From a virus, in the IMG/VR virus record IMGVR_UViG_3300013093_000077, positions 1 to 47,708 of that record: 47,708 nucleotides of DNA; one strand, written 5' to 3'. How positions within the stretch are numbered: the first letter of the stretch is position 1; each line of letters opens with the position of its first letter. Below are positions 5,199-20,839 of the stretch, in pieces. Both the position numbers and the translations under genes were made by a program. The notes under the pieces are model-generated. The model made no database searches. It was not told where the DNA came from and worked only from the letters and a program-made list of their open reading frames with translations.

Positions 5199-8100
5199 TT
5201 ATGCGCTTAGACCAGCAATAGCGCCAGTATTTTCTAGACGTAATGGAATGTAAATAAATTCCACTGCCTTGACTGGTTCGATAGCAATATCAACGTATAG
5301 TTCGCTTGCATCGATTCTAGCCGGTGTATTATTACTTGAATCGCACACTACTAGATAATCATATAGAGCACGTTCAGCTGTTAATGTTAACAATAGTTTT
5401 TCAACTTGTTGTTTAATTTGATTACGTGTAATAGTATCATTTGGTTCAAATATAAATGGTTTAGCCAAAGCATTTAATTGCTGACGTAAGTAAATTACTA
5501 AACGAGCAACATTTATACGATCTAAACTACTTGCAATCAACTGACGTGTGTATTGTCCGTAAGCAACTAATCCAGTTCCAGCAATATATGTAATTGGGTT
5601 AACATGGATGCTAGCTAAAGTATCGCGTTGTCCGCCATTTAATGCTACTGTTACAAATTCACCGTTTGATGCATTTACATAACCTACTGAGCTAGCATTT
5701 GTTACACCACCACGACGTACACCAGCTGGTGCAAACCATGGATAAGAAACGTTATCACTTAAAGCAATTGTACGTAACATAATGTGACTTGGAGGAACAA
5801 CAATATTGTTACCTGTTAAATCTTGGGTATAACCCCATGGGTAATAAACTGCTGTATATGAATCAGTTGTAATTAAACCGTCTTCACCATCTACTGCGGC
5901 TCCTGCTGTATTATTACCCCAGTTACTTAGTGTAGTAGCATCGGGTGTTAAACGTGCTGGTGCATCTGCAACAATAAATGCTGATAAACCGTTATCATTA
6001 TTCAATCCAACTAAATCGCTGACTGTTTCTAAGTAGCCAGGGCAACTTAACAAGTTGAAAATAACTGTGTCCGGTTGACGAATATTTGTATTACTTTGGA
6101 TTGTTGCTACGAGTGCTTTTAATACAACTGCACGTTGAGCTTTACGTCCAAATTGACCAACTCCGTTGTTGTCGTTAGGAGCATCACTCACCCAACGATT
6201 TGGGAAATAGTTTGTCATTAATGATGGACTATTGGCGTTATAAATTGTGTTGTAAGCATTAGTATTAACATAATTTACAACATATTTCTTAACATTAAAT
6301 CCTGAACGACGTAAGTTCCATAGCAACATTCCTTTTGGATATAGTGCTGGACTTGGACAATCAAAGTCAACAAAGTTTGTTGTTAGCAATGATTGGATTG
6401 TTGCTGGAGTTGCACTTGTACCGTCCATATCCCAACGTGCATCAGCAAATATAATACCGTTACCTGTTAAGTGATCTTCATTGTTAACTAGAACCCAGTT
6501 CTTAGTTAGATAGTTATATTTCCAAATTATTGGGAAAGAATCTAAATCTGCTAAATCTGTTTGAATCCACAAATCGCCATTAGCTAATCCTGTACCGTCA
6601 GATTGTAATGTTGGCATTGATGCACTAATAATAGGTCCATTAGTATCTGTTGATGTACCACCTACTTGATTTTGCACATAGTTCAAATAACCAACCCATT
6701 TAGTACCGTCATTGACTAAGATATCAACTTCTTCTAAATTATTGTTGTACCATAAAGTTTGATCCAATGGTGTAGCTGTCGGTGCTACTGAACTTGCAGG
6801 AGCAATTGCTGAACCGTTGACCACTGCGGCCCATAAAGTTGCAATGTAATTATTTGATGTGCCAGTTGGGCTAGTATAATAATTAGCAGTACCTGTACCT
6901 GCATCATTGACTGAGAATAATTTAGATAAAGGTGTTCCTGTACCATCGACAAATCTTATATCACCACCTGCTAGATGTGAAATTGTAATTGTATTTGTAG
7001 TAGTGTTTAAACTAGCAACAATATTTGAATCAGTTACTGCGGCACTAAACGCTGCCAAGAATGCATTTGCATCGCTTGTTGCATTTTGTGTAGCTGTAAA
7101 CGATACAGTTACTGCATTTGTTAATGTACCAGAACCAATTTGACTTTCTTGAATAGTAAAGCTATATGTTTCGTTATAAGATGTACCAGTAATAGTAACT
7201 GCTGAAGAAATAGTTTGGCTTGTACTTACAGTATAACTTGTAGCAGTTGTTACAGTTCCAGTTGTACTTTGATTCAAATTATATGTACCAGTACTGCCAG
7301 AACCTCCAGCGAATGATGTAATGTATGAACCTAATGTTACACTTGTTCCACTTAGTGCCATACCCACACTGATTGTGCCAGTTACTGCTGTAACATTCAA
7401 CACACTTAAAGTAGTTGTTAAACCACTTACAGCACCTTGTGTAGTTGTAATTGCTGTACCACCTTTTGTAGCAGACAATTGAATACTTGTACTAGTTGGG
7501 CTACCAATAATATAGTATGTACCAGCACTAATACCCTGGCTAGTTGATCCTGTAATAACAACTTGCATACCTGCTTGCAATGTATAAGTGTTAAATGTAC
7601 TAATTGTACAATTACCACTTGTGCTTGTAGTAGCTGTAATTGTTAATGCCGCATTTGATGTAGCTGTAATTGCTGTTGCTGAATTAATAGTTGAAATAGT
7701 TGTTCCAGCAGTTACACCAGTTCCAGTTAATACCATACCAGTTGCGTATGTACCAGTTATTGATCCTGTTGGTGTGAATACTGTACCTGCCCCAGTATTA
7801 GAACCGTTGCCGATAATACCTAATGCACTAGCAGTTGCAGTAGCACTTCCAGGGAAAGTATTTGATGTTACTGGAAGCGATGTAATAGTAGTTGCACCTA
7901 CACCGCTTCTTGCATAAATTTTAAAATTTGCGTAAGCAGGAGAAAATTCACCGTCATTGTATTTTACATATAGTTTACCGATTGGTAAATTAATACCACC
8001 ACCTGTTGGGTCTAATGCTGCCAACGCAGATTGCCCGTTTGGATATAATGCAATTGGCTGTGCAACCCATGTACTTGTAGAAGAAAAATATTTTTTAACA

Positions 8101-9251
8101 AACCAATTTGCTCCTAGATTTACAGCAGTTGTTTTAATCCAAATAGAACCTGTTGGTGCACCGTTTACTGTAGTCAATGGAGCATTTTGTGTGCCATATT
8201 GTACAAATCCGTCATAAGTTCCGTATAGTGGAACATTGTAGTGAGGACTAATTTGTAGTTGTGGTGCTAAGTAAGTTCCTGAAAGAATACCTAATGGTCC
8301 AGCATTTTGAGCTGAAGACCCTGTTAATGTTCCTGAAACAACAAGATTTACACCTGTTGAATAAATTTGTAAGCTGCCGTTTATTACTGCGGCTGTTACA
8401 CCAGAAATACTTGAACCATTAATTAAACTTGCCAATGTAGTCAGTGAACTAGTCGATGCTGTAATTGTTGAACCATTGATAATTAATGTACCAGTTACAG
8501 TTGATGGACTTAATGTAGCCGCAACTGCTGGCCAACTTGCAGACCATGCACTTGTACCTACTTGCACCCATGTGCCGCTAGCAGTTGATGTTTGATATTT
8601 TTTCAACCAAAGAGAATTTAAATTTGTCGGTGTTGTACTAGTTGTAGAAACAATTGCATAATCGCCTTGTTGTCCATAACTTGCTACAGGACCGCCTGTA
8701 ATACTACTTACCAATGCAGGATTTGTAATTACACTTATATTGTTTACAGTACTTTGATTTACAAATAACTGACCGCCAGTGACATTTGCGGCTGATGCAT
8801 TCCACTGGAATACACCAAAATTAGTTTCTGTTGTATCAAACCATAATGTCTGATCTGCAGGAGGTGCTGTAGGAATAGTTGGAGTGCCTTCTAATTGAGA
8901 CGTATTTAAATCTGCACGTACAACATAAGCACGATTTGCTACACCTAAAAAACTATAAGCGGCTTGTAGTCCATATTCATTTAATTCGCCAGCATGTACT
9001 GGGTTGTTTTCTGCGTCAGTTTGGAAATAAGGAATACCAAATGTTGAACCTAAATCTGCTTGACTGGTTAACAAATATACTTTGCCAGCATTTGCGGCTA
9101 GTGTTCCTGGAGCAATTCCTGTTCCAGCTGAATTCATTTTGTTTGCTTGTGAAGCAACGATAATCAAAGGTACGGTGCCAGGAGCGGCAGGTGTATAGAA
9201 CGATTCGTCTACTACTGTTACGCTTACGCCTGGTGAACTAAGTTGAGCCAT
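5199..9251 (-). CDS. 18: Tail sheath protein (T4 gp18-like) with large inserted repeat region
   Basis: The contractile sheath subunit, 1350 residues against 659 in T4. The N-terminus (LSSPGVSVTVVDES, residues 4-17; FLGVANRAYVVRADL, residues 101-115) and C-terminus (from about residue 835, with RLVIYLRQQLNALAKPF and FEPNDTITRNQI) match gp18. Between about residues 190 and 810 there is a Ser/Thr/Gly/Ala-rich beta region. Residues 487-687 contain repeat modules of the kinds GMVLTGTGVTAGTTI and AGTYYIIGSPTSTSIQLSAT, which also occur in the fibre proteins of this window. They probably form extra domains on the outside of the sheath. GGAG lies 8 nt upstream of the ATG and a late box about 33 nt upstream. 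gp19 follows 13 nt downstream. Confidence 0.93.
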   Translation of the reverse strand: MAQLSSPGVSVTVVDESFYTPAAPGTVPLIIVASQANKMNSAGTGIAPGTLAANAGKVYLLTSQADLGSTFGIPYFQTDAENNPVHAGELNEYGLQAAYSFLGVANRAYVVRADLNTSQLEGTPTIPTAPPADQTLWFDTTETNFGVFQWNASAANVTGGQLFVNQSTVNNISVITNPALVSSITGGPVASYGQQGDYAIVSTTSTTPTNLNSLWLKKYQTSTASGTWVQVGTSAWSASWPAVAATLSPSTVTGTLIINGSTITASTSSLTTLASLINGSSISGVTAAVINGSLQIYSTGVNLVVSGTLTGSSAQNAGPLGILSGTYLAPQLQISPHYNVPLYGTYDGFVQYGTQNAPLTTVNGAPTGSIWIKTTAVNLGANWFVKKYFSSTSTWVAQPIALYPNGQSALAALDPTGGGINLPIGKLYVKYNDGEFSPAYANFKIYARSGVGATTITSLPVTSNTFPGSATATASALGIIGNGSNTGAGTVFTPTGSITGTYATGMVLTGTGVTAGTTISTINSATAITATSNAALTITATTSTSGNCTISTFNTYTLQAGMQVVITGSTSQGISAGTYYIIGSPTSTSIQLSATKGGTAITTTQGAVSGLTTTLSVLNVTAVTGTISVGMALSGTSVTLGSYITSFAGGSGSTGTYNLNQSTTGTVTTATSYTVSTSQTISSAVTITGTSYNETYSFTIQESQIGSGTLTNAVTVSFTATQNATSDANAFLAAFSAAVTDSNIVASLNTTTNTITISHLAGGDIRFVDGTGTPLSKLFSVNDAGTGTANYYTSPTGTSNNYIATLWAAVVNGSAIAPASSVAPTATPLDQTLWYNNNLEEVDILVNDGTKWVGYLNYVQNQVGGTSTDTNGPIISASMPTLQSDGTGLANGDLWIQTDLADLDSFPIIWKYNYLTKNWVLVNNEDHLTGNGIIFADARWDMDGTSATPATIQSLLTTNFVDFDCPSPALYPKGMLLWNLRRSGFNVKKYVVNYVNTNAYNTIYNANSPSLMTNYFPNRWVSDAPNDNNGVGQFGRKAQRAVVLKALVATIQSNTNIRQPDTVIFNLLSCPGYLETVSDLVGLNNDNGLSAFIVADAPARLTPDATTLSNWGNNTAGAAVDGEDGLITTDSYTAVYYPWGYTQDLTGNNIVVPPSHIMLRTIALSDNVSYPWFAPAGVRRGGVTNASSVGYVNASNGEFVTVALNGGQRDTLASIHVNPITYIAGTGLVAYGQYTRQLIASSLDRINVARLVIYLRQQLNALAKPFIFEPNDTITRNQIKQQVEKLLLTLTAERALYDYLVVCDSSNNTPARIDASELYVDIAIEPVKAVEFIYIPLRLENTGAIAGLSA
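7190..7800 (-). repeat. Surface-type repeat modules inside the sheath gene
   Basis: Three consecutive protein modules are encoded: a GTGVTAGTTI type (about 7790-7625), a TYYIIG...QLSATKGG type (about 7617-7430) and a second GTSVTLGSYI/SGSTGTYNL type (about 7425-7190). The same families recur in the giant proteins at 21205-39224 and in the genes at 39969, 42719 and 45435. The boundaries are read from protein similarity and are approximate. Confidence 0.7.
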
Positions 9252-14901: not shown

Positions 14902-15332
14902 AAGATCCTATAATTTGTAGTGGAGCATTATTTTATGCTAAATCTACTGGGCGGTTTTTGTTGTTACAAAAAGCAACTGGTAAACACGAAGGGACATGGG
15001 GGTTAGTTGGCGGTACTAATGTATCAGGCGAAACACCGTGGCAAGGACTACAACGCGAAATCAATGAAGAAATTGGTGTTTGTCCTAATATAATGAAAAC
15101 TATTCCGCTTGAAACATTTGTTTCTAATGATCGAGTTTTTAATTTTCATACATATCTTTGTGTAATAGAAAAAGAATTTGTTCCTGAACTTAGTAATGAA
15201 CATCAAGGGTGGGCATGGGTAACTATAGATCGTGCACCTAAACCCTTACACCAGGGTCTTAGAAATAGTTTTAGTAGTAAAATTATAAGAACTAAATTAC
15301 AAACAGTATTTGATTTAATTAATTTAATTTAA
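14883..15332 (+). CDS. Nudix hydrolase
   Basis: A 149-residue Nudix enzyme that cleaves nucleoside diphosphates linked to another group. The Nudix box is complete at about residues 43-65: G-TNVSG-E-TPWQGLQ-REINEEIGV, exactly Gx5Ex7REUxEExGU, so it should be active. The substrate cannot be told from sequence. Candidates include dNTP, ADP-ribose or cap-like compounds. The start lies inside the end of gp15 (19-nt overlap), placing it in the gp14-gp15 late unit rather than an early operon, which is unusual for a metabolic gene. Its 3' end overlaps the converging halogenase-like gene by 9 nt. Confidence 0.93.
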   Translation: MENNTVKDPIICSGALFYAKSTGRFLLLQKATGKHEGTWGLVGGTNVSGETPWQGLQREINEEIGVCPNIMKTIPLETFVSNDRVFNFHTYLCVIEKEFVPELSNEHQGWAWVTIDRAPKPLHQGLRNSFSSKIIRTKLQTVFDLINLI

Positions 15333-16511
15333 AAATCTATTTAAATCTATTTTTAATCCCATCAAATATTGACTCATGATTTTATCATCGTGTTTCCAGT
15401 ATTCTGAAATTTCGTTTGTTGCTATAGCTTTTTTACACCAGTTTATAAAATTATAAGAATTTTTTAATTTAATAAAAGATTTTTCTTTAGCATAGTGCCA
15501 AAATTCAGAATTTATATTATTTTCTCCTACATAATTTATTGCAATTAATTCTTGTATTAAATTAATTGTTATATTATGTTTATTATTAACATGATTTTCA
15601 ACGGACGAATACTTGTCGCTGATTATGGTAGAGAAAAAATTATTCGTTAATACCAAATAATAATGTAATGGTAGTGCTTGTGCTGGCTCGAAAAAATATA
15701 ATTTATTACCTAGATATAAAATTCTTCCTTCAACTGCTTCTTTTTTATAGTAAGGATTCCATGAAAATTTTCTAGATTTAGATGTATCTATGTTTTTTAT
15801 TTTTTCAAAATCTTTTACAGCTTCTTCTTGTGTTGTTATATTGTTGTTATAAAGGTATCCAAACGCTTTTCTATGCTGTAAAGGAACTCCAAACATCCAA
15901 CCGTTATTATGGATGTATGCCGAAGTAAAGTCTTCGTGATAATTTTTAAAATCTGGATATAATATAACAGAATTAACGCTGATAAAATCAGGTATTACAT
16001 ATTTGTCACTATTTAATTCATCCGATGTAGGAGTTCCACGGCAATCTATAAGATAATCGAATGTGTAGTTTGATTGTGTACCATTAACTATAACTGAATT
16101 TGCAGTTTGATCTACAGTTATTACAGTATCGTGTATTTTTTTTAAATTATATATTTGAGAAAGTTTTTCAATTACAAATAAACTGAATTTTTCACTATTA
16201 ACATGCAATCCTGGATTACCGTGATTTATGAAAAATGTATTAGTATTTGCTTCTTCCCAATAATATCTTGTGCCCCAACGTAATGTTCCGTCAAACTTAT
16301 CTATATCGTCTGGCACACAGAAATTTAATACACGATATAAAAGGAATGAAAGTGCAGGGCTAGTACTTTCACCAACATGTGTTATTGGAATATTAGGATC
16401 GTAAATACACGATATTTCAATATTTTGTATTTTTTTATCGTGTATTGTTTCAAATATTTTAAGTAGTGCTACTGCACTTGCAGTTCCTGCACCAATAATG
16501 CCAATTTTCAT
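15324..16511 (-). CDS. Flavin-dependent halogenase-like protein (tryptophan halogenase family)
   Basis: A 395-residue flavoprotein. It has an N-terminal dinucleotide fold GIIGAGTASA (4-13), ITHVGESTSPA (43-53) as in the GEST/GEAT motif, LIDCRGTP (154-161), GWMFGVPL (204-211) in place of the WxWxIP signature, and LGNKLYFFEPAQALPLH (267-283) for the FAD/active-site region. By eye, the catalytic lysine of PrnA/RebH (K79) falls on Arg78 in GTLRWGTRYYW, and the second Trp of WxWxIP is Phe207. A viral halogenase of this family, VirX1 of cyanophage Syn10, is known. It may therefore be an atypical halogenase, a monooxygenase or an altered enzyme. It is the last gene of the cassette with the radical SAM enzyme, and its ribosome site sits in a hairpin. 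Confidence 0.8.
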   Translation of the reverse strand: MKIGIIGAGTASAVALLKIFETIHDKKIQNIEISCIYDPNIPITHVGESTSPALSFLLYRVLNFCVPDDIDKFDGTLRWGTRYYWEEANTNTFFINHGNPGLHVNSEKFSLFVIEKLSQIYNLKKIHDTVITVDQTANSVIVNGTQSNYTFDYLIDCRGTPTSDELNSDKYVIPDFISVNSVILYPDFKNYHEDFTSAYIHNNGWMFGVPLQHRKAFGYLYNNNITTQEEAVKDFEKIKNIDTSKSRKFSWNPYYKKEAVEGRILYLGNKLYFFEPAQALPLHYYLVLTNNFFSTIISDKYSSVENHVNNKHNITINLIQELIAINYVGENNINSEFWHYAKEKSFIKLKNSYNFINWCKKAIATNEISEYWKHDDKIMSQYLMGLKIDLNRFLN

Positions 16512-16532: not shown

Positions 16533-16540
16533 TATTTATT
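16533..16540 (-). promoter_or_regulatory. Late-promoter-like box before the halogenase-like gene
   Basis: AATAAATA on the minus strand contains the TAA stop of the gene upstream. With T4 spacing, the transcript would begin near 16527, inside the 5' arm of the hairpin, which would free the ribosome site. Confidence 0.55.
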
Positions 16541-17531
16541 GAACAGTTACTACACAGTCATCTGTTCCGGTGTAGAATTTAAAACCGCATTTTACTTTTG
16601 CAATTTCACCTGATGTTAGGTGAGATGCAATTAAACGAACAGTACCTACACCATTTTGAGTAGTTACTTTTTGCTTGTTTAGTACACCCGCAGTTGTATC
16701 TAAATATACATCAGCATCGTGTCCAGTAATTGTTGTACCTGAACTATCTCCAAGATAGAACGAAATATCAACATATCCGTCTGGTGTGACAGTTGCTGTT
16801 TTAGTATTAAACCATACTTTAGGATAACTCTTATCTAAGAAAGTATTTCCTAATTGTCCAGGCATTAATGTTGTAGTTTCACCTGTATTAATTTTTAATA
16901 ATCCAGCATCTTCCATTTTAAAGATCAAATTCCAATCGCTAAATGGGGAATCTGCAAATGGAACACAAATACTAATCATTCTGCTTACTGCTTGATTATG
17001 ATGCCATGTATAATCAAATGGATTCATTTTATGAGATGTAGTTAACGCATAAATGTTTGTATATGGCATTCTAGGACGTCTATCAGTCATTGACTTACCT
17101 AACATAGCTGGTTTAAGATCAGCAGTTGTGTTAAGGTCATCTGTAGGATCGTCTTCGTTATTATTGCCTTTTGCTAAATCGACTAATACAGTATTTCCTG
17201 AAATAGTTGTCGACGTCCAAGGAGAATAAATGATATATAAACCGTGATCTGAAAAATCTTTAGATTTTTTTATATCATTAAAATCTACAGTAATTTCATA
17301 AGCTAGCGGATCTTTAAAAATTGACCATTTATCGGTAGTCCATAATGGAACGGAATCTACTGGAGGAGCACCGTGTTTGATATTTGCTGTTCCATCTCGC
17401 ATTTGTTGCCAGTATTGTGCTAACGATGCTGTTTCATATGCCAAATGAGTAATATAGGTAAATCCAGAATCGTTAAATGACATTTCTAGTCCAAATGGAC
17501 AATTTTTTGTTATACTTTCATATAAATTCAT
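16536..17531 (-). CDS. Unknown protein with Ig-like C-terminal domain, in the radical SAM cassette
   Basis: A 331-residue protein. Residues 1-215 are not recognised. They contain many Trp, His and Pro residues (for example MPYTNIYALTTSHKMNPFDY, YTWHHNQAV), a mixed alpha/beta pattern and no signal peptide. Residues 235-331 look like a bacterial Ig-like (Big_1-type) domain: ATVTPDGYVDISFYLGD, then ADVYLDTTAGVLNKQKVTT and GVGTVRLIAS. Only two Cys are present, both close to the C-terminus. It lies between the radical SAM and halogenase-like genes and has its own late box overlapping the radical SAM stop. It may be a virion or fibre component that carries or receives a modification, but this is inference. 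Confidence 0.75.
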   Translation of the reverse strand: MNLYESITKNCPFGLEMSFNDSGFTYITHLAYETASLAQYWQQMRDGTANIKHGAPPVDSVPLWTTDKWSIFKDPLAYEITVDFNDIKKSKDFSDHGLYIIYSPWTSTTISGNTVLVDLAKGNNNEDDPTDDLNTTADLKPAMLGKSMTDRRPRMPYTNIYALTTSHKMNPFDYTWHHNQAVSRMISICVPFADSPFSDWNLIFKMEDAGLLKINTGETTTLMPGQLGNTFLDKSYPKVWFNTKTATVTPDGYVDISFYLGDSSGTTITGHDADVYLDTTAGVLNKQKVTTQNGVGTVRLIASHLTSGEIAKVKCGFKFYTGTDDCVVTVQ

Positions 17532-17556: not shown

Positions 17557-17564
17557 TATTTATC
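17557..17564 (-). promoter_or_regulatory. Late-promoter-like box before the 331-residue gene
   Basis: GATAAATA on the minus strand overlaps the TGA stop of the radical SAM gene and lies 25 nt upstream of the ATG. The ribosome site CAGGAG is between them. Confidence 0.55.
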
Positions 17565-19005
17565 AGGCTACTACTGTACTTTTTCCGTATACTTCTACAT
17601 CGTCAATTACAGCAACTTTTTCTGCAACTACTTTTATAGGTATTACTTTTTTCTTTGTTTCTTCCTCGTGTTTTAGATTCCAACCAAAGATATCTTTTCT
17701 TTCAGGAGGTAATTCGGGACTATTGATATAGTATACTTTATAACCTTCTGTAATTTTTTCTAAACTTAATACAAATAATGGAATAGCATCGCTAAATGCA
17801 TTATCACAGCTTCTAGTCCAGTATTCACCATCTAAGAACATACACGCACCTTTGCATATGTGTAATACTGGGCATTTAGGACATTCTAAACGATTTGACC
17901 AGTGAGTTGCTGTTTTAATCTCTACATTTTCAATATCTGTAATACTTCCGCCTAAATGGCTTTCTCCATTCTTGCCTATTTCTAGTGCACTAACATTTTG
18001 ACAAGTAATAACATTTCCTCTTAGATCAAATGCTATAGTTTGTTCATCATCCATGCCACATTTTTGACCTAAATATGTAGATTCTTTATGTGTTAAAACT
18101 GTTTCTGTGAAATCGTCAATTTTTTGCAGTATGCCGCCAAAGCCAATATCGCCCTGACTGACAAAAATATCTGCAAAACTTTGTAATCTATAATCAAAAT
18201 GTTCTTTTTTAGTATTGAGACTATTTTCAAGACCTTCTTCGTCATATGCATCAACAAATGCACCCTCACCTAATGGTACAAACGGGTCACCTGTTAGTTC
18301 AACAAACCAGTCAAATATTGCTTTTCTACTTGTATTTTTGCTATTCATCATCGCATTAAAACTAATACGATTATGAGGTTTCATAATTTCATAAAAATTA
18401 AGAATAGTTTCTTTTTTAATAGGGTCGTCAAAAGGATCTGGACCGCGAACACTTTGTCCAGGACCGTCGTGACTGATAGATACACTAAATCCCATAGAGT
18501 ATAACCAGGCACAGATTTCTTCTGTTAACAAACTACCATTAGTGATCATACTAAAATAAGGAGCTTGTTCCCAATCTTTAAATTTATCTGCAATTGCCTC
18601 AGCTAGCGGTTTTAGTGTTTTCCAATAAACTAACGGTTCCCCGCCCCAAAATTCAACTCTTAATCCAGTTGCTTCGTTAAATTCTAAATTATTAAACATT
18701 TCCATAAACTGTTCAATATCTTTAGGATTAGTTTCTTTTGGTCGTTCTACAAACTTTTGACTACAATAATCACATGTATAATTGCAACTAAGACCTAGCT
18801 GTATTTTTACAGTTTTTACACTACGTGATTTTTTAAGAGGAAGATCTTTATTGAACGGTATATAAGCCGGCAAATTTGCTTGAGGCTTTGCTTCTGGGTA
18901 TTCAAAAACATGCCCAGATTCATCTGTTAATATATTTTTTTCGTTGTCGTAAAAAAATATTTTTCTATTACCTTCTTCTTTCTCTGCCCATAATTCGAAA
19001 ATCAT
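17563..19005 (-). CDS. Radical SAM enzyme with SPASM domain (peptide maturase type)
   Basis: A 480-residue enzyme. The radical SAM 4Fe-4S site is C74-NYT-C78-DY-C81, followed by FWGGEPLVYW (119-128, SAM binding), ITNGSLLTEE (154-163) and SISHDGPGQ (176-184). The C-terminal SPASM domain is complete: C316, G330-NVIT-C335, then C375-x2-C378-x5-C384-x3-C388-x11-C400, enough for auxiliary clusters. This is the architecture of sulfatase-maturase-like and RiPP-modifying enzymes that act on peptides or proteins. Residues 1-60 and 430-480 lie outside the known core and could contact the substrate. The ribosome site AAGGA lies 6 nt from the ATG. It starts 11 nt after the Asn-Cys repeat gene, its most likely substrate. 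It is a rare type of gene in phages. Confidence 0.92.
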   Translation of the reverse strand: MIFELWAEKEEGNRKIFFYDNEKNILTDESGHVFEYPEAKPQANLPAYIPFNKDLPLKKSRSVKTVKIQLGLSCNYTCDYCSQKFVERPKETNPKDIEQFMEMFNNLEFNEATGLRVEFWGGEPLVYWKTLKPLAEAIADKFKDWEQAPYFSMITNGSLLTEEICAWLYSMGFSVSISHDGPGQSVRGPDPFDDPIKKETILNFYEIMKPHNRISFNAMMNSKNTSRKAIFDWFVELTGDPFVPLGEGAFVDAYDEEGLENSLNTKKEHFDYRLQSFADIFVSQGDIGFGGILQKIDDFTETVLTHKESTYLGQKCGMDDEQTIAFDLRGNVITCQNVSALEIGKNGESHLGGSITDIENVEIKTATHWSNRLECPKCPVLHICKGACMFLDGEYWTRSCDNAFSDAIPLFVLSLEKITEGYKVYYINSPELPPERKDIFGWNLKHEEETKKKVIPIKVVAEKVAVIDDVEVYGKSTVVA

Positions 19006-19016
19006 CTATTATCCTT

Positions 19017-19394
19017 TTAACAGTTACAGTTGCAATTGTAGCTATATTGATTTTGGCCACAATTGTATGTACACGCACAGTTACAGTTGTTTTGTAACCA
19101 TGATTGTGTATCACAGTTTGTACAGTTAATATTATAACAGTTATAGCAATTAAAGCAATTGACACTACCGTAAAATCCACAATTAAATGAAGGACAATTA
19201 CCGTTATTACAATTACCTTGATTATTATGTCTAAAATATGTCTTATTATACCACTCAGTCATCTGCTCATAGCTTTGGCGCAAAGACGGTAATACTAAAT
19301 TATGAATAGTATTAAATCCAACATTACTATTAGATAAACCAATCTCTGCTGTTGCATTGCTAACAGCAATCTGTGGGCCGCCTGTAATAGTCAT
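19017..19394 (-). CDS. Asn-Cys repeat protein, candidate radical SAM substrate
   Basis: A 125-residue protein in two parts. Residues 1-60 lack Cys and look like a leader or anchor (VSNATAEIGLSNSNVGFNTI, then LRQSYEQMTEWYNK). Residues 61-125 contain 15 Cys at 62, 67, 72, 80, 83, 86, 91, 94, 104, 106, 108, 112, 121, 123 and 125. Fourteen of them directly follow Asn, and the last residue is Cys. Other core residues are mainly Asn, Tyr, Phe and Gly, with a single Trp at 99. There is no signal peptide and no recognised domain. GAGG in the end of the fibre gene upstream serves as ribosome site. The radical SAM/SPASM gene starts 11 nt downstream. It could be a RiPP-like precursor, a crosslinked fibre tip or a metal-binding protein. 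Confidence 0.85.
   Translation of the reverse strand: MTITGGPQIAVSNATAEIGLSNSNVGFNTIHNLVLPSLRQSYEQMTEWYNKTYFRHNNQGNCNNGNCPSFNCGFYGSVNCFNCYNCYNINCTNCDTQSWLQNNCNCACTYNCGQNQYSYNCNCNC
19020..19214 (-). repeat. Asn-Cys coding repeat
   Basis: The 65-codon 3' half of the gene is an irregular repeat of AAY-TGY codon pairs, encoding Asn-Cys 14 times with spacers of 0 to 8 residues. The spacing is irregular, unlike zinc fingers. Confidence 0.85.
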
Positions 19395-19396
19395 AT

Positions 19397-20839
19397 TTAA
19401 TTACCTCTATTTTTGAGATCTTGAATTTCTGCTTTTAATAAACGTAATTCTGCTCTCAATTCTTTGATACCTTCTACAAATAACGGTGCTAATCTTTCGT
19501 ACAAAACTGTTAGATACTTATCATCTATAGGAGCTGGTTTTACAGCTTCTGGCAAGGCAGCTTGTACTTGCTGAGCACTAACACCCACTTCTCTTTGAAC
19601 AGTATAACCTAATGATTGTGCAATTTCATTAGCTTCGTAATAAAATCCGTCTAATGTATCGATTTTATCTAGAGCATTTTCAATTTTTCCAAGATTTACT
19701 TTTAATCGATCATCTGAATAGTACGCAATAATGTTACCAGTAGCATAAATTTGTCCCGAACCTGGGTTACCAGTACCAACACCTAAACCACTGTTAATCT
19801 GTGCGCCAGATGCGGCATAAAAACTTCCGTTGTTAACGTTTAAGTTACCGTTATTAACAGTTTCACCACCAGAGTTAATTGTAATACCACTACCATTAAC
19901 GTTTATACCAGCGGCAGCACCGATAGCACCACTATTAACGGTTATACCACCAGAGTTAACTGTAATAACGTTACCAGCTGTTAGTCCTGAACCAGCTGAA
20001 ATGGCTGCATTAGGTGTTGATAATGTATTTCTAATAGTAGTTGTACCACTAGTGGCTGCCATTGTTAAGGTAGTAGCTGCCTGAGCAAAGTTAACTGTAG
20101 TAGCTGTACCGTTTACTAAGTTAAATGTACTTTGGTTTGTAGATAATGTACTGTTATTAATTTGAATATTTTCACTGCTGTTCCAGCCAGTACCACTGCT
20201 CGACCATTGGAATGTTTTATTAGTAGAACCATACAACAATATGCCACCGCCATTCGCTGTAGTATCTGTTGGGCTTGCTACGTTACCTAAACGAATGTCA
20301 ATATCTTGAACAGTCATTGTAGTTGAATTGATAGTTTCAGTAGTACCTTGAACTGTTAAATTGCCTTTAATATAAGTAGTACCTGATGAAGATCCTAAGT
20401 TTAGTGTTGTTGCCGCGCCACCAAGGTTAATTGTAGTAGCAGTTGTATTTGCAATATTTGTAGTTGCACCAGTAACAATAAGATCAGAACCGTATGTTAA
20501 ACTACCTGATGTAACAACTGGACCACCTGGCCAACCTGCAATAATATAATTAGTGCCGTCTGACTGAATAACTAATGTACTAGCTGATACTAGCGATTGT
20601 GATGCTGAACCGCTTCCACCTGGGCCTGTAAATATACCACTTGGAGTAGTTAACGTAATAGTACCGCTAGTTGCGTTATAGTAGGTTAATGGATTAATCC
20701 TATAAATTGTAGGATCCGGAATAGTAATAGTATAAGGTGCAGTACCGGTTAATTCTGTAAATAATCCCTGAGTAGGACTAAGAAAAGTTCCGCCGCCACC
20801 TGTATTTTGAGTTGGGTTAGTGGTAATATAACGTGCCAT
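19397..20839 (-). CDS. Tail fibre protein with C-terminal S74 chaperone domain
   Basis: A 480-residue fibre protein. The N-terminal 60 residues are Gly/Pro/Thr-rich, and the middle is a repetitive beta shaft (TTINLGGAATTLNLGSSSGT; NSGGITVNSGAIG; NGSGITINSGGETVNNG). The last 106 residues form the intramolecular chaperone (Peptidase_S74): SDDRLKVNLGKIENALDKI from residue 375, then GVSAQQVQAALPEAV and a terminal coiled coil. Such domains guide trimer folding and cut themselves off at a Ser in the SD dyad, here Ser375. It lies 2 nt upstream of the Asn-Cys repeat gene, so the two are translationally linked. AGAGAG precedes the ATG. Confidence 0.88.
   Translation of the reverse strand: MARYITTNPTQNTGGGGTFLSPTQGLFTELTGTAPYTITIPDPTIYRINPLTYYNATSGTITLTTPSGIFTGPGGSGSASQSLVSASTLVIQSDGTNYIIAGWPGGPVVTSGSLTYGSDLIVTGATTNIANTTATTINLGGAATTLNLGSSSGTTYIKGNLTVQGTTETINSTTMTVQDIDIRLGNVASPTDTTANGGGILLYGSTNKTFQWSSSGTGWNSSENIQINNSTLSTNQSTFNLVNGTATTVNFAQAATTLTMAATSGTTTIRNTLSTPNAAISAGSGLTAGNVITVNSGGITVNSGAIGAAAGINVNGSGITINSGGETVNNGNLNVNNGSFYAASGAQINSGLGVGTGNPGSGQIYATGNIIAYYSDDRLKVNLGKIENALDKIDTLDGFYYEANEIAQSLGYTVQREVGVSAQQVQAALPEAVKPAPIDDKYLTVLYERLAPLFVEGIKELRAELRLLKAEIQDLKNRGN

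Follow-up and report, generated by a model that had tools for sequence, protein, structure and literature searches.

The window, that is, the whole stretch of viral DNA analysed here (47,708 nt, IMG/VR record IMGVR_UViG_3300013093_000077), encodes on its minus strand a radical SAM/SPASM enzyme that starts 11 nt after the end of a gene for a small Asn-Cys repeat protein (Table 1). All 15 Cys of the repeat protein fall within residues 61-125, its first 60 residues being free of Cys. These 15 Cys are preceded by NNNNNNNNNNANNNN, i.e. 14 Asn and one Ala. The original prediction, made from the sequence alone, had described this arrangement of a SPASM enzyme 11 nt behind a 125-aa protein with 15 Cys in its last 65 residues, 14 of them following Asn, and it was confirmed to the base. 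When the Cys-rich half was shuffled 200,000 times, 14 Asn-Cys pairs were never reached (maximum 12). In the other proteins encoded on the minus strand Cys makes up 0.57% of residues, and the binomial probability of 15 Cys in 65 residues is accordingly about 4e-20.

The genes are transcribed in the order 2634-aa giant protein, 3358-aa giant protein, 109-aa protein, S74-type fibre, repeat protein, enzyme, 331-aa protein (orf331), and halogenase-family flavoprotein. Shine-Dalgarno-like sequences were found ahead of the repeat protein (AGAGG) and ahead of the enzyme (AAAGGA). The setting in a tail-fibre operon, which had also been predicted, held, with the S74 fibre and the two giant proteins situated upstream. 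The window also encodes a sheath domain and a tail sheath stabiliser of the T4 type, which show that it derives from a contractile-tailed phage. With 1350 aa, the ORF at positions 5199-9251 has an unusual length for a tail sheath; only its residues 1242-1336 match the phage sheath C-terminal domain.

Table 1. Positions of the genes and sequence features discussed in the text
Feature	Position	Strand	Evidence
Radical SAM/SPASM enzyme, 480 aa (phrog_1802)	17563..19005	-	ORF; PF04055 E 1e-9; phrog_1802 E 6e-63
Cluster motif CNYTCDYC (C74, C78, C81) of the radical SAM enzyme	18763..18786	-	invariant in 97/97 homologues
SPASM domain, C316-X13-G-X4-C335 ... C375-X2-C378-X5-C384-X3-C388 ... C400	17806..18060	-	alignment with sulfatase maturase and CteB
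Asn-Cys repeat protein, 125 aa, proposed substrate	19017..19394	-	ORF; homologues in >100 viral contigs
Cys-free N-terminal module, repeat-protein residues 1-60 (MTLPASGxIxxSDxxxExG in relatives)	19215..19394	-	alignments
Asn-Cys tract, repeat-protein residues 61-125, proposed modified region	19020..19214	-	Cys count, coupling, pN/pS; predicted by model to be disordered when unmodified
Tail-fibre protein with C-terminal Peptidase_S74 chaperone, directly upstream of repeat protein	19397..20839	-	PF13884 E 2e-11; tail-fibre PHROGs
orf331, 331 aa, possible accessory tail protein	16536..17531	-	relatives near enzyme in other loci
Tryptophan-halogenase-family flavoprotein, altered motif GWMFGVP instead of GWxWxIP	15324..16511	-	PF04820 E 5e-27; motif check

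Motifs, family and fold of the enzyme

The radical SAM motif CX3CX2C (C74/78/81) and the seven-Cys SPASM motif CX(9-15)GX4C-CX2CX5CX3C-C (C316, 335, 375, 378, 384, 388, 400) are invariant in 97/97 homologues. An eighth SPASM Cys between C316 and C335 is absent from all 97, and beyond the ten cluster ligands no Cys is conserved in 30% or more of the 97 rows. Position 336 is occupied by Q in 91 of the 97 homologues, by H in four, by N and P in one each, and by Asp in none. Since the Cys completing the first auxiliary cluster of sulfatase maturase is missing, we infer, from sequence alone, that this cluster has three Cys ligands and an open site in the phage enzyme. Thioether maturases use a three-Cys cluster with an open site to hold the substrate Cys.

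The enzyme matched phrog_1802 with 214 bits (E 6e-63). None of the NCBIfam equivalog cut-offs for known maturases was reached, and the margins were wide (bits/cut-off: PapB 72/340, SCIFF 42/425, QhpD TIGR03906 67/453, sulfatase maturase 50/349). The best models were PapB, QhpD, geopeptide, and CcpM, all of which describe peptide or protein maturases; the PapB ranthipeptide and QhpD models were matched by all 97 members, far under the cut-offs. The AlphaFold2 model of the enzyme (pLDDT 94) shows a partial barrel fold, and SPASM structures were its best matches. In the structural comparison CteB ranked first with a Z of 23.3 over 351 residues, followed by ChlB (19.8), sulfatase maturase (19.1), TigE (18.1), viperins (about 14-15), and EpeE (12.4). 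No Pfam match and no RRE were recognised in residues 1-60, which are modelled as three strands without a helix; CteB aligns from residue 1. We conclude that enzyme and repeat protein operate like a radical SAM maturase with its substrate, yet by score the enzyme is a member of no named maturase family.

Co-occurrence of enzyme and tract

A search of viral contigs with the enzyme gave 16 loci, and a search with an alignment at least 527 relatives, 80 of which were kept. An ORF with an Asn-Cys tract was found on the same strand within 4 kb of the enzyme for 59 of 64 distinct viral enzyme genes, and for 54 of these 59 the distance was within 36 nt. The five exceptions are overlapping ORF-start calls (L004, L114) and contig ends (L049, L050, L087). 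Starting from the other side, the enzyme was present in 91 of the 92 loci found by the repeat-protein search, and the remaining locus (L231) stops at a contig edge. In addition, viral contigs were scanned blindly at the DNA level for potential coding of NCNCNCxC, an approach independent of either protein. The pattern was in an open frame in 60 of the 80 loci examined, and 35 of these 60 have the enzyme on the stretch examined. Where at least 3.5 kb was available downstream, the enzyme was found in 23 of 27 loci; the other four are open frames of only 46-80 aa. In the control, loci with the pattern out of frame, the enzyme was found once in 20.

In GTDB genomes a tract ORF lies within 4 kb of the enzyme in 49 of 62 loci. 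At the threshold used, 13 loci have no tract ORF; contig ends truncate several of them, but for L123, L167, and L169 this is not obviously so. The GTDB enzyme loci are prophage-like, with tail-fibre, terminase, or tape-measure genes surrounding the enzyme, and were found in Burkholderiales (Limnohabitans, Polynucleobacter, Paraburkholderia), Rhodospirillales, and others. On the enzyme tree the gene order of enzyme and tract was reversed at least once with the pair being kept, and the type of the protein carrying the tract changed too.

Among annotated phages the enzyme was found in Achromobacter phages JWF and 2-1, whose enzymes also belong to phrog_1802. A tblastn search with the repeat protein against annotated phages gave no match, which we ascribe to the scarcity of isolate phages of this group, and the N-terminal module alone gave no match against them either. 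Radical SAM genes of Campylobacter phages were considered as relatives and rejected; only the core domain matched (26% of the query) and the neighbourhood looked unrelated.

The side-by-side occurrence of the two genes is thus general among the enzyme and tract loci found. Neither of two outcomes that would have spoken against a dedicated maturase-substrate pair was met with: the repeat protein is not regularly found without the radical SAM gene, and the enzyme does not clearly match another substrate class. This part of the original prediction held and is strongly supported by the co-occurrence from both sides, the reversal of the gene order, and the change of carrier. That the enzyme acts on the Asn-Cys tract is an inference from co-occurrence, which we regard as very likely.

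Some loci with unusual arrangements were also observed. Six viral contigs (L280, L281, L282, L287, L298, L329) contain short KNCNCNCHC frames with further Cys and no enzyme on the stretch examined; they form a separate small family, possibly of metal-binding proteins. In Sutterellaceae (L181-L185) divergent members of the enzyme family occur, up to several of them side by side (L182); L181 has CSYCSYCTYC-type repeats in place of NCNC. At L031:8385-12037 a relative of orf331, beside one tract gene, is flanked by two radical SAM enzymes that share 37-38% and 42-43% identity with that of the window. It is conceivable that one of the two acts on a second substrate.

The tract, its carriers, and its neighbours

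In 75 homologues of the repeat protein Cys is preceded by Asn in 71% of cases, 3.3 times the background. In the repeat protein pN/pS is lowest for Cys, at 0.09, and rises to 0.13 for Asn that precede Cys, 0.26 for the remaining Asn, and 0.45 for the remaining residues; Cys is thus the most constrained residue of the tract. The Asn at position -1 is lost together with its Cys (phi 0.69-0.96). Coupling is highest for N85-C86 (0.96), N105-C106 (0.93), N82-C83 (0.91), and the pair 73-74 (0.86), and a value of 0.69 was obtained for both N71-C72 and N103-C104. Asn at -3 is outside the strongest coupling partners of Cys; polar residues are nonetheless common at this position. In C-terminal tails Asn is often replaced by Ala, Asp, or Val. 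From the joint loss of Asn and Cys and from the ranking of the pN/pS values we conclude that the Asn-Cys dyad is the functional, coevolving unit of the tract, which is gained or lost as a whole.

The AlphaFold2 prediction for the unmodified repeat protein gave no usable fold. The Cys half is predicted to be disordered, and only the N-terminal module was modelled, with middling confidence; no significant structural match to this model was found in the viral structure library. The alignment for structure prediction was the set without two phage-collection sequences.

The proteins carrying the tract share only the tract. After its removal they fall into clusters of 102 (the type of the window), 48 (tail-fibre type), and four rows, and single rows. 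In many loci the tract is situated on tail-fibre-type proteins of 200-600 aa. It is followed by the stop codon in most rows, by a helical domain starting with SKIIC in 59 rows, by a Hint domain in nine rows, and by an S74 chaperone in two rows. In Achromobacter phage JWF a Hint domain follows the tract (...NCNCDCNCNCSCFPAGT...). Hint and S74 domains are self-cleaving in known cases; therefore the mature tract would be C-terminal in those carriers too. Since the carriers are unrelated and the tract either forms their C-terminus or immediately precedes an end-domain (Hint, S74, or helical), the tract itself is probably the substrate. The original prediction can be refined in two respects. Because the tract is a C-terminal element that can be transferred between proteins, the phenomenon extends far beyond the 125-aa protein; furthermore, the coevolving unit is the Asn-Cys dyad and not the N-x-x-C spacing of one known Asn-Cys thioether.

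In Synechococcus phage SynMITS9220M01 (L392:2675-4525) the same SKIIC-type helical domain comes after a glycine-rich part and a Pro/Arg run (about 35 Pro, 8 Arg), and not after a tract. This suggests that the domain serves phage fibres as an end module in general.

In a subset of the repeat-protein relatives the last residue is Trp (...CACACW). When the DNA was scanned blindly for CACACW plus a stop codon, 17 genuine tract ORFs were obtained. Thirteen of these have 4.5 kb or more of downstream sequence, and all 13 are accompanied by the radical SAM gene and a tryptophan halogenase. The GWxWxIP motif is preserved in the halogenases of the Trp-ended loci. Among 51 relatives of the halogenase that were examined, the eight most similar to those of the Trp-ended loci (scores above 600) adjoin Trp-ended tracts, and the rest are without a tract. 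A distinct halogenase subclade is tied to Trp-ended tracts. On the tree only three independent pairs were available for the association of Trp-ended tract and halogenase (two agree, one shows no difference), which is not significant. With too few trait changes on the tree, we regard a halogenase acting with Trp-ended tracts merely as a lead, echoing QhpD and QhpG, which act on one polypeptide (PMC7876137). In the clade of the window the tract is without Trp and the flavoprotein has GWMFGVP; judged from this motif, its activity is likely to have changed.

Loci with a Trp-ended tract and an intact halogenase a few kb downstream include L068, L051, L025, L079, L101, and L111, among others. In L083 the halogenase is likewise intact, and the tract ends in ...CACFW before an S74 domain. 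The flavoprotein with a GSGTASA/GAGTASA-type start and GWMFGVP is common to the clade of the window (L004, L006, L009, L015).

Of the long loci, 35 of 44 bacterial and 9 of 41 viral ones contain a relative of orf331 close to the enzyme, and orf331 could be a third component of the system. Members of this family (relatives in L138, L150, L163, L031) have ends resembling RVKxGxxxxxGxxD and an Ig-like look; in the bacterial loci they are often situated between tract gene and enzyme. Genes of the 2OG-Fe(II) oxygenase family adjoin the pair in several loci (L025:7401-7973, L025:12131-12787, L138:6393-6950), possibly encoding further tailoring enzymes.

Proposed function, alternatives, and known systems

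These analyses show the pairing and its generality, together with conserved cluster ligands, the fold, selective constraint on the dyads, and where the tract is placed. On this basis we propose that the enzyme-substrate pair finishes a part of the phage tail through thioether-type crosslinks in the tract. The balance tips slightly in favour of this reading as a whole, the bond, the presence in the virion, and the role in infection being inferred. A virion part and not a secreted peptide had been suggested as the possible product. This is well supported by the gene context and by the tail-fibre, Hint, and S74 carriers, and we consider it likely that the product belongs to the virion tail; virion proteomics is lacking. 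The crosslinks that had been predicted are not shown. Thioethers are plausible and, in view of the pattern of cluster ligands and the fold, we lean towards them, in the absence of mass-spectrometric data.

In the proposed mechanism the enzyme would recognise the Asn-Cys tract that its partner, a tail-associated protein, bears at its end. Support for this step is strong, by inference from co-occurrence. Hydrogen would then be abstracted from tract residues in a SAM-driven reaction, with a tract Cys placed on the open site of the first auxiliary iron-sulfur cluster, and the Cys sulfur would be joined to a neighbouring carbon all along the tract, as in ranthipeptide/sactipeptide maturases and QhpD. 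The support for this second, likewise inferred step is moderate. Finally, the disordered tract would become a compact, redox-proof, protease-resistant knob at the tip of the tail protein, and self-cleavage of Hint or S74, where present, would leave the tract as the C-terminus.

There are precedents for such chemistry: NxxcA contains a Cys-Asn S-Cbeta thioether (PMC8326336), freyrasin contains six Cys-Asp bonds (PMC8326336, PMC7876137), and QhpD crosslinks a protein subunit rather than a peptide (PMC7876137). An N-x-x-C bond as in NxxcA was considered for the phage tract and rejected; despite the common polar residues at -3, the coupling is to the Asn at -1. Because the dyad rule differs from the NxxcA spacing, the exact bond may be new. 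A bolder reading would be that several phage enzymes together mature the tail tips: the radical SAM enzyme would crosslink an exposed tract via its Asn-Cys dyads by an undescribed bond, and in one lineage a dedicated FAD tryptophan halogenase would act on the terminal Trp, so that the virion would bear a crosslinked knob, halogenated or oxidised in another way, that contacts the receptor. Taken jointly, these claims fall a little short of even chances in our estimation.

We considered four alternatives. First, the tract could be modified by another radical reaction, i.e. epimerisation of alternate residues, C-C or C-O crosslinks, oxidation of beta-carbons, or an undescribed dyad-specific bond. 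The reactions of SPASM enzymes with a similar fold are diverse, the nearest structures include TigE and ChlB, and the alternating X-C pattern and the coupling to the Asn at -1 agree only inexactly with the N-x-x-C bond that is known. On the other hand, no residue is as conserved as Cys; carriers, flanks, and even Asn are more variable. In the known peptide epimerases (EpeE, PoyD) an extra Cys is required as hydrogen donor. Against epimerisation, no such Cys is conserved beyond the ten ligands, and EpeE is low in the fold comparison. This alternative remains possible.

Second, the target of the enzyme could be the S74 fibre, orf331, or the product of the halogenase-like flavoprotein, the Asn-Cys protein being a metal-binding or disulfide-bonded passenger of a host-recognition island. 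The frequency of orf331 relatives in bacterial loci and of S74 genes as neighbours would agree with this explanation. We consider it unlikely, as the other neighbours come and go (orf331 in only 9/41 long viral loci), whereas the tract is near-constant, on unrelated carriers and in both gene orders.

Third, the enzyme could be a formylglycine-generating maturase of the sulfatase type that oxidises one Cys, the tract otherwise forming a disulfide-bonded or metal-binding tip. Sulfatase maturases were among the first sequence-search matches, the JWF gene is so annotated, and the fold is similar (Z 19). The catalytic Asp of sulfatase maturase is D277, following the second SPASM Cys. In the phage enzymes this position is Gln in 91/97 and Asp in none, the extra cluster Cys is missing in 97/97, the NCBIfam score is 50 bits against a cut-off of 349, and neither a sulfatase gene nor a C-x-P-x-R motif in the tract was seen, which makes this explanation very unlikely.

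Finally, a released RiPP-like peptide (toxin, signal, or anti-competitor factor) would fit the small Cys-rich substrate beside a SPASM enzyme, which is the usual RiPP layout, and a Cys-free first half that could be a leader, but it is very unlikely, as the tract is often found on 200-600 aa tail-fibre-type proteins or before S74, Hint, or helical domains, no RiPP protease or exporter was seen next to the pair within the window, and tail genes surround the pair in various kinds of phage.

Secreted peptides and a small number of enzyme subunits are known to mature by radical SAM chemistry. In the literature searched, which excluded bioRxiv and most subscription papers, we found no account of the radical SAM maturation of a virus structural protein and no prior description of the phage enzyme-tract system, only precedents for the chemistry; to this extent the original statement that no such phage system has been described held. 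The system is present in more than 500 viral contigs, which is a lower bound, and in prophages of Burkholderiales and Rhodospirillales, and would therefore be a common but overlooked layer of phage biology. If the proposal of a crosslinked tail part is true, it represents a previously undescribed way of finishing a virus particle. It would point to a likely function for phrog_1802 and for one subfamily of the tryptophan halogenases of phages, and the system offers hundreds of naturally occurring enzyme-substrate pairs whose C-terminal substrate tags are transferable. The question whether the host-contacting tip of a phage is hardened or functionalised by covalent post-translational chemistry thereby becomes testable.

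Among known systems, phrog_1802, annotated as phage 'radical SAM domain-containing protein', is the family of the enzyme itself; it has no assigned function and nothing ties it to a substrate. The anaerobic sulfatase maturase, the name given to the JWF homologue, shares fold and SPASM domain with the phage enzyme, which lacks the eighth cluster Cys and the catalytic Asp. CteB/SCIFF and PapB resemble the phage system in the SPASM fold, in a seven-Cys SPASM domain without the eighth ligand of the first auxiliary cluster, and in the Cys-rich substrate encoded next door, and CteB is the nearest solved structure. In contrast to these, the phage enzyme is far below the family cut-offs and has no clear RRE, and the phage substrates are tail proteins with Asn-Cys dyads in Caudoviricetes and prophages. 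As in RiPP systems generally, a dedicated precursor gene adjoins the modifying enzyme. NxxcB of streptococci is also a radical SAM/SPASM enzyme and joins Cys to Asn in a ribosomal peptide (PMC8326336); it forms one bond in an N-x-x-C core, whereas in the phage tract many Cys have a coevolving Asn at -1. QhpD differs in substrate, acceptor residues, and setting, and its model is matched with only 67 bits (cut-off 453). Like the proposed phage maturase, however, QhpD is a SPASM enzyme, and it installs several thioethers in a structural protein subunit, that of quinohemoprotein amine dehydrogenase; with QhpG the qhp operon also encodes a halogenase-family flavoprotein, and such a flavoprotein is present in sister phage lineages as well (PMC7876137).
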